This document shows positions 2,842 to 15,939 of a stretch of DNA of 64,000 nt, one piece after another. Below the pieces are notes generated by a model. It saw nothing but the letters and a program-made list of their open reading frames with translations. It was not told the origin of the DNA and ran no database searches. The stretch is from Planctomycetaceae bacterium (lineage in GTDB: Bacteria; Planctomycetota; Planctomycetia; Planctomycetales; Planctomycetaceae). The DNA is taken from positions 1 through 64,000 of the forward strand of contig JAKFVC010000061.1 in assembly GCA_021732415.1 (NCBI GenBank), in the 5' to 3' direction. Numbering within the stretch: position 1 is the first letter of the stretch; each line of letters begins with the position of its first letter. Position numbers and translations under genes: made by a program.

Positions 2842-4890
2842 ATGCCGATCCGCCGCCGAATCATCCTGCTGCAACTGCCGATTCCTCAGCCGGGCTTGGA
2901 ACCCGCCAAGGGAAATGTGCCGCTGGCGGCCGGCTATCTGAAGATGTACGCGCGGAACCGCGGACTGGAAGAGTTCTACGAGATCGATATCTTCCCGCCG
3001 CACCTGGCCAACACACTGAGCGATCATGGCCTGGTCGAAGCCATCCAGGCTCAAGATCCGTGGATGGTGGGTTTCACCTGTTATCTCTGGAACATCAATC
3101 GCAGCCTGTGGGTGGCCGATCATCTGAAGGCTGCTGATCCCGGGCTGCTGACGATTTTTGGCGGCCCCGAGATCACTGCCGACAATGGTTGGGTCCTGCA
3201 ATCGTCGTCTCTCGATTTTGCGAGTATCGGTGAGGGGGAGCAGACTTTTTCCGAGTTGCTGCAAGTACTGACGACCGCACCGCTGCCCACCGCTGGCATT
3301 AACGGACTGTATGTCGCGCCGGCGGCCGTGCGAACGATTGCCGCCATGGCACCTGTCGCGCCCCGCGAATTGGTTGCCGAAGTGGGTGCCACTGGCTCTG
3401 CTAGTGTCGCTCCTCTATCCGCGGTTCTTCAAAGTACTGGCAGAGCCAGTGGCACCCAACTTCCTAGCTTTGACAACGAACGAGCCACAGAGCCGTCCCT
3501 GCCGATTGTCGAAAATCTGTTGCCGGTCGTGCCCGCTGCGAAGGTCGGCACCCTGCCCTTGTTCCGCACGCCGTTACCGAATCTCAATGCCATTTCCTCG
3601 CCGTACCTGGAAGGCATTCTCGATGCTGCCGACGAGGAAATGCTGCTCCTCGAGACGATCCGCGGCTGCATCTTCAAGTGCAAATTCTGTTACTACCCCA
3701 AGAGCTATGACGATCTCTATTTCGTGTCGCGCGACAAGATCGTCGCCAACTTGCAGCATGCCCGGGAACACGGCGCGACCGAGGTCGTGTTGCTCGATCC
3801 GACACTCAATCAACGCAAGGACTTTGCCGAGTTCCTGCAGTTGCTGGCCGAGTGTAATCCGGGACGCCAGTTTGAGTACTTTGGAGAATTGCGGTCCGAG
3901 GGCATCAACGCGGAAATTGCGGAGCTGCTGGCTGCGGCCAACTTCAGTGAAGTCGAGATCGGCCTGCAATCTGTCGATCCAGTCGCTCAAGAATTGATGG
4001 ACCGCAAGAATAACATGAAGGCGTTCGAACGGGGCGTGAAAGCCATGCGCGACGCCGGCATTCGTGTCAAAGTGGATCTCATTATCGGTCTGCCGGGAGA
4101 TACGGTGGCGTCGATCCGCCGAGGCATGAAATACCTGCGCGACAGTGGGCTGTACGATCTCGTGCAAGTCTTCAATCTAGCCATTCTGCCCGGGACCGCC
4201 TTCCGTCAAGAGGCCGAACAGTTGGGGCTCAAGTTCCAGCCAGTGCCGCCCTATTACGTGTTGCAGACGCCCACGTTGGAGATGACCGACTTCTACGAAC
4301 TGATGGCCGAGGCCCAGGAGATCTTTGAAACAGAATTCGATCCACTCCCAGAGCCGGTGATCCCCGAAGTGGATGACTGCGGCCTGATAGCCGATGGCCC
4401 GGATGGTCAGTCACTTTGCAGGACGTGGCGCATGGACTTTGATCGCGGTGATGGGCTCAACCTCACACTGCCAGCACCCGGTCAGCGGACTCAGGCCTTT
4501 ACTCTGTGGTTCCAAGGGAATCATCTCCCGCAGCATCAAGCGGATGTTGTGGAGACCATTGCCACCTGCCTGAGCGACAATCCTCATTCCACGCTGCAGA
4601 TTATTCTCGAACCGCGCGCGGCAGCGGTCGAGATTACTCCGGAGTTCCTGGACGACTTGCTGCAAGTTTGCTTTCGGACGACATCGTACCTTGATCGGTT
4701 CTACTCGATGGCACCCGGCCGACGTAAAGGGGCCAAGCGTTTGGTTCTGTTGCTGTCATGGTCGGTCCGCGAGGCGTTGGGGATGGAATGGATCGATACT
4801 CGCGGCGAGTATGCCGACATCGTGTGGCGCGATGCGGACGATGCTGAAGCCGAGATGGCGGAGTTCGAATATGTGTTAGGAGCAGGATGA
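2842..4890 (+). CDS. B12-binding-type radical SAM protein
   Basis: A 682-residue radical SAM enzyme. The cluster motif CIFKCKFC gives Cys276, Cys280 and Cys283, the ligands of the [4Fe-4S] cluster that cleaves SAM. Residues 1-160 form a Rossmann-like domain with FGGPEITADN (106-115), typical of the cobalamin-binding domain of this superfamily, though I see no DxHxxG cobalamin-ligand motif. The TIM-barrel part continues to about 480 (EVEIGLQS, DLIIGLPGD), followed by a C-terminal domain of unknown role. The substrate is unknown. Residues 181-206 are encoded by an inserted inverted repeat (see that entry), and the linker to about 250 is low in conservation signals. The start is an ATG right after a repeat doublet. 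Confidence 0.85.
   Translation: MPIRRRIILLQLPIPQPGLEPAKGNVPLAAGYLKMYARNRGLEEFYEIDIFPPHLANTLSDHGLVEAIQAQDPWMVGFTCYLWNINRSLWVADHLKAADPGLLTIFGGPEITADNGWVLQSSSLDFASIGEGEQTFSELLQVLTTAPLPTAGINGLYVAPAAVRTIAAMAPVAPRELVAEVGATGSASVAPLSAVLQSTGRASGTQLPSFDNERATEPSLPIVENLLPVVPAAKVGTLPLFRTPLPNLNAISSPYLEGILDAADEEMLLLETIRGCIFKCKFCYYPKSYDDLYFVSRDKIVANLQHAREHGATEVVLLDPTLNQRKDFAEFLQLLAECNPGRQFEYFGELRSEGINAEIAELLAAANFSEVEIGLQSVDPVAQELMDRKNNMKAFERGVKAMRDAGIRVKVDLIIGLPGDTVASIRRGMKYLRDSGLYDLVQVFNLAILPGTAFRQEAEQLGLKFQPVPPYYVLQTPTLEMTDFYELMAEAQEIFETEFDPLPEPVIPEVDDCGLIADGPDGQSLCRTWRMDFDRGDGLNLTLPAPGQRTQAFTLWFQGNHLPQHQADVVETIATCLSDNPHSTLQIILEPRAAAVEITPEFLDDLLQVCFRTTSYLDRFYSMAPGRRKGAKRLVLLLSWSVREALGMEWIDTRGEYADIVWRDADDAEAEMAEFEYVLGAG
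3384..3457. repeat. Inverted-repeat hairpin element inside the radical SAM gene
   Basis: The 22-base arm at 3384-3405 (GGGTGCCACTGGCTCTGCTA plus GT) is complementary to 3436-3457 with one mismatch, separated by 30 bases. It is read in frame as residues 181-206 of the radical SAM protein and lies in the linker between the N-terminal domain and the catalytic barrel. This is what a palindromic element inserted into a tolerant interdomain linker would look like. Confidence 0.8.
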
Positions 4891-8062: not shown

Positions 8063-8087
8063 CAATTCACTAAAAACTATACGGTCG

Positions 8088-8173
8088 ATGGGAGGGTGAG
8101 GCTCCTGCCGAACCGCAAGCGTCTCTCGGGCGTCGCCAGACTAAGTGGTTCGGCAGGAGCCTCACCCTCCCAT
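8088..8173. repeat. Inverted-repeat hairpin element, family B copy 1
   Basis: A perfect 27-base inverted repeat (8088-8114 with 8147-8173; core GGAGGGTGAGGCTCCTGCCG) around a 32-base loop. It lies between the convergent YdcF and DUF1501 genes and could end both transcripts. Copy 2 at 15858 keeps the arms and much of the loop sequence. Confidence 0.9.
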
Positions 8174-8197
8174 CAGCCGCAAGACGCGCTCGTGATT

Positions 8198-15857: not shown

Positions 15858-15939
15858 GGGAGGGTGAGGCTCCTGCCGAACCGCAGGCGTCTATCGGGTG
15901 TCGCCAAACTATGCGGTTCGGCAGGAGCCTCACCCTCCC
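15858..15939. repeat. Inverted-repeat hairpin element, family B copy 2
   Basis: A perfect 28-base inverted repeat (15858-15885 with 15912-15939), homologous to 8088-8173 including much of its loop. It stands alone in the gap upstream of the DUF1549 gene, not next to any gene end. Confidence 0.9.

Follow-up and report, generated by a model that had tools for sequence, protein, structure and literature searches.

REPINs were defined as pairs of short REP hairpins, inverted relative to each other and separated by a spacer, and in the Pseudomonas type the cognate RAYT transposase gene is flanked by the same hairpins (PMC3116915). REPINs can also persist in genomes without a RAYT, as in E. coli (PMC8049555). 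In 2013, REPs and REP dimers were reported in frame inside genes of several bacteria other than Rickettsia, and Planctomycetes were found to have GTAG REPs (PMC3733652). Intragenic REPs of the GTAG/CGTC type occur, for example, in Opitutus terrae and in recB of Xanthomonas; dimers or groups of them encode 20-30 residues, and in two Xanthomonas species the REPs within recB differ from each other but occupy nearly the same site (PMC3733652). The palindromic elements of Rickettsia (RPEs), of which the RPE-4/RPE-6 type is defined by a CGTC end (PMC3733652), are inserted in frame in proteins as well. The initial annotation of the locus described here cited Rickettsia as the known precedent for such insertions, but it is not the only one.

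The window analyzed is a stretch of 64,000 nucleotides from a Planctomycetaceae bacterium (contig JAKFVC010000061.1). One gene in the window contains a strong palindrome in its coding sequence (Table 1). The two arms are 23 nt each, form 22 of 23 possible pairs (96% complementary) and enclose a loop of 30 nt. The 22-base inverted repeat annotated earlier at 3384-3457 is real. When one bulged base is allowed, the palindrome grows to the full extent given in Table 1. The RNA fold of 3374-3467 has an energy of -56.6 kcal/mol, compared with -26.8 ± 3.3 kcal/mol for shuffled sequences (z = -9.2). The hairpin was initially likened to the intergenic elements. The design is indeed alike, but by sequence the remaining hairpins of the window are members of other families. 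One GTAG-tagged REP, CCGACTCAGAGAGTCGGACTAC, is located at 2806-2828 in the window, 13 nt before the start codon (2842), and similar REPs were found close to Y1 transposase genes at two other loci (L174 and L181).

Table 1. Window positions of the host gene and of the parts of the palindromic element.
Feature	Position	Strand	Description	Basis
Host gene	2842-4890	+	intact; 682-aa B12-binding/radical SAM protein	ORF, Pfam, dN/dS, AlphaFold
REPIN copy, full palindromic extent	3379-3463	.	GAAGT-GGGTGCC ... GGCACCC-AACTTC	sequence, family profile, comparison with L061
Left REP arm	3383-3405	+	TGGGTGCCACTGGCTCTGCTAGT; small hairpin in itself, CACTGGC-TCT-GC(C/T)AGTG	
Loop	3406-3435	+	reading frame without stop codon; about 40% divergence from the 70-nt subfamily (by-eye comparison)	
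Right REP arm	3436-3458	-	inverted copy of the left arm	

A genome-wide search was run for further copies of the hairpin. The 20-nt arm had about 125 matches per strand in the 9.87-Mb genome, whereas the reversed control had 2 and 7. The full-length gapped inverted unit, searched as a strict pattern, was found in at least 90 places, compared with 0 for the reversed pattern. Most of the other copies lay away from long open frames, with one deep inside another gene. The same repeat family was present in 22 of 119 related genomes. In a profile of 142 half-elements, GGGTGCCACTGGCTNTGCCAGTGC was nearly invariant, and the loops and outer flanks varied. Each arm is by itself a short imperfect palindrome (CACTGGC-NNN-GCCAGTG), and therefore the unit consists of two REPs face to face, which is the architecture of a REPIN: two small hairpins of GGGTGC-CACTGGC-NNN-GCCAGTG in inverted orientation with a variable loop between them. 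The paired hairpins, the variable spacer and the copy number of about a hundred resemble the Pseudomonas REPINs. However, the arms start with GGGTGC here (GGGTGCC in the window copy) and with TGTGC in some relatives, and not with the terminal GTAG tetranucleotide of the GTAG REP superfamily, and the window copy is intragenic.

We examined 72 distinct elements of this genome as individual loci. Judged by the long open frames around them, only two of the 72 lay well inside genes that looked real. Long open frames across several further copies (L028, L006, L021, L144, L011 and others) were not counted as coding, as they looked spurious and were near gene ends. Some arms were found in diverging pairs, opposite to the usual REPIN and mostly about 150 bp apart (G000 C11:78703/78875, C49:19708/19849, C54:13454/13607, C83:7373/7525, C86:267/420 and C89:29960/30112).

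In the host protein, Pfam placed the B12-binding domain (PF02310) at residues 27-140 and the radical SAM domain (PF04055) at residues 271-427. The palindrome is in frame and corresponds to residues 181-206, between the two domains, as had been annotated. The nearest homologue, L061 from the same genus (genome G003), has 91% aligned identity and 29 fewer codons (87 nt) in the linker, and the palindrome explains 85 of these 87 nt. The insert residues were absent from L061 and from all the other homologues in alignment A1 (38 in total). This absence, together with the genomic copies, supported the proposal that a palindrome of a repeat family was inserted in frame between the two domains. Weighing against an insertion, no target duplication could be read in the L061 comparison, and the variable linker leaves the exact empty site indistinct; linker length varies in all homologues. 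Such variability would also fit a chance palindrome or a slow expansion of the linker without any insertion, but the contrast between the 20-nt arm and its reversed control argues against this, a chance palindrome is excluded by the genomic copy counts, and we give this explanation virtually no weight.

The dN/dS of the host gene relative to L061 was 0.075 overall and 0.06 outside the linker, indicating that the gene is under purifying selection, and the intact frame together with these values ruled out a pseudogene. In the AlphaFold model (39 sequences, mean pLDDT 85.8), the sole segment with pLDDT below 50 was residues 175-226, which are predicted to be disordered, and the insert thus sits in a predicted disordered linker. 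It reads as small polar residues (GATGSAS...STGRASGT).

The genome of the window is 98% complete, and none of its 13 matches to Y1_Tnp (PF01797) had arms of the family within 1.5 kb. Its closest Y1 transposase, with 34% identity to the RAYT query, was likewise without family arms. Two near-identical Y1 transposase genes are located 2.8 kb apart in this genome (G000:C1:49482 and 52274; L176 and L177). Among relatives, a clade of RAYT-like (HUH) genes carried the same arms on both flanks, inverted or nearly inverted, in G027 (L275), G028 (L276 and L296), G082 (L277) and G061 (L278), and the truncated RAYT locus of G009 (L289) had the same arm on one side. The HxH (MPEHIH) and Y-x-H-x-N-P (YIHxNPVRRG) motifs are present in this clade. 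A cognate RAYT with the matching REP on its flanks, as in Pseudomonas, was observed in these five relatives and not in the genome of the window. The absence of a RAYT bearing these arms from that genome counts against such an origin of the window REPIN, but REPINs can persist without a RAYT, and we infer that this one was probably mobilized by a RAYT of the relatives' clade. An ordinary DDE-type MITE with no relation to RAYTs would be expected to show terminal inverted repeats and a size of 70-85 nt, as seen here, and the lack of a cognate RAYT in the genome is in its favor. However, every arm is a hairpin, RAYT genes of relatives have these arms, inverted, on their flanks, and no direct repeat that could be a target site duplication was read in the flanks examined, which weakly continue the palindrome. 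A MITE is thus very unlikely.

Other palindromes were found in the same linker of homologous proteins. Scanning the whole homologous genes gave five strong inverted repeats in 9.1 kb of linker, compared with four in 114 kb elsewhere, and one in codon-shuffled genes. Two of the four outside the linker sat at the 5' border of the stop-to-stop frame and probably precede the start. The linkers of L066 and L063 contain a GAGTCAC palindrome with 192 and 38 genomic copies, respectively (control 0), and the genome of L065 has 23 copies of this family (control 0). Within or beside the GAGTCAC palindrome of L063 is a second element, GGCGTCAGCCCCC, with 29 copies in that genome (control 0); the copy counts of the GGCGTCAGCCCCC family were 29 and 83. 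The linker of L065 carries a CGCTCTCG palindrome, found at 5 sites in its own genome, including the two arms of this element, and at 27 sites in G121 (controls 1 and 2, respectively). Taken together, the window REPIN and the GAGTCAC, GGCGTCAGCCCCC and CGCTCTCG families supported no fewer than four REP insertions in this linker, representing four families. Unlike the recB case of Xanthomonas, unrelated REP families, one of them nested in another, are found in the linker of one protein family.

In L120 from Chloroflexota, a palindrome of repeated ATTGCAG is located at the linker edge, and the linker codes for IADCRLQIG..NLQSAICNLQ from this repeat; L126, also from Chloroflexota, has a decayed-looking version. 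A palindrome starting with GTAGGGAACGCC was observed at nt 1537-1611 of the stop-to-stop frame of L077, in a second variable loop past the radical SAM barrel, and L082 has a similar long stretch in that loop.

The second deep coding copy among the 72 was in an unannotated gene for a 796-aa membrane-like protein (G000:C40:30553-32940, L233; element at 1501-1570 of L212), which had no match in a Pfam search and is unrelated to the B12-binding/radical SAM host. The insert uses the same reading frame as the window copy (GATGSAS...TGTASGT). The orthologue in G003 (L234, 85% identity) has kept the same REPIN, the orthologue in G002 (L235) carries a different REPIN of the GAGGCTCCTGCCGAACC family in frame at that loop, and the orthologue in G001 (L236) has no REPIN. 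The GAGGCTCCTGCCGAACC family is also found in the window at 8082 and 15858. These window copies (GGGAGGGTGAGGCTCCTGCCGAACC; 8082-8179 and 15858-15939) represent a second REPIN family of the window, which reads GEAPAEP in one frame and GSAGASP in another and is in frame in L235.

Between G000 and G003, the synonymous difference of the second gene was 0.517 outside the insert. In the arms, none of about 12.7 synonymous sites differed (chance about 1e-4), in a comparison of a single gene pair that was picked after inspection of the data, and 7 positions differed in the loop. By eye, the two loops share states that the family consensus lacks. This argues for a single insertion that was inherited, although parallel re-insertion is possible. 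Arms that stayed unchanged while the gene diverged are a hint of upkeep at the DNA level.

The hairpin could instead be a functional part of the gene selected at this position, for example an mRNA structure that slows the ribosome for folding of the B12 domain. Its high stability and its location exactly at the domain boundary would fit such a role, as would the several palindromes in the same linker of relatives and the unchanged arms of the second gene against 52% synonymous difference outside the insert. However, the hairpin is absent from the linker of most homologues, the closest among them, and the near invariance of the arms throughout the family means that they may be conserved for reasons not specific to genes. 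We regard a selected function of the hairpin as very unlikely.

Hence, the segment is very likely a REPIN inserted in frame into a variable linker that is predicted to be disordered, probably mobilized by a RAYT and expected to be translated and tolerated. The REPIN would be a non-autonomous mobile element of two inverted REP hairpins, and its mobilizer would probably be an HUH tyrosine transposase, a RAYT from the clade in which relatives' genes have the same REPs on their flanks. It would have entered the linker of the B12-binding/radical SAM protein after the split from the nearest sampled relative, adding 29 codons with the frame unbroken. By chance the insert reads as small polar residues, and its translation would be expected to give a tolerated extension of the flexible linker that is neutral for the enzyme. 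We also put forward, tentatively and with considerable doubt, that REPINs in coding linkers are under upkeep at the DNA level, by gene conversion from genomic copies or by selection on the hairpin. The same nucleotides would then serve as selfish element and as protein linker, and certain linkers would be hit repeatedly by REPIN families, with one family replacing another or nesting inside it.

Like the RPEs, the element is a palindrome inserted in frame in a protein. Unlike them, it is unrelated in sequence, and deep coding copies are rare here (two of the 72 examined); the lack of a CGTC end led us to reject a Rickettsia-type RPE. We class it as a REPIN whose RAYT link is seen in relatives, and not as a rickettsial palindromic element. 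It resembles the intragenic GTAG/CGTC REPs (PMC3733652) in that REPs or dimers lie in frame within real genes, but the REP sequence is another one. In-frame REPs outside Rickettsia were already known, and our searches of the open-licence literature found no report of this REPIN family or of the two host genes.

These results show that, in this REPIN-rich phylum, elements of this kind extend proteins at disordered linkers, and they provide two protein families where both the presence or absence and the identity of the element can be traced across species. The route from short selfish repeats to protein sequence, including the upkeep of the hairpin at the DNA level once it is coding, is now directly testable.
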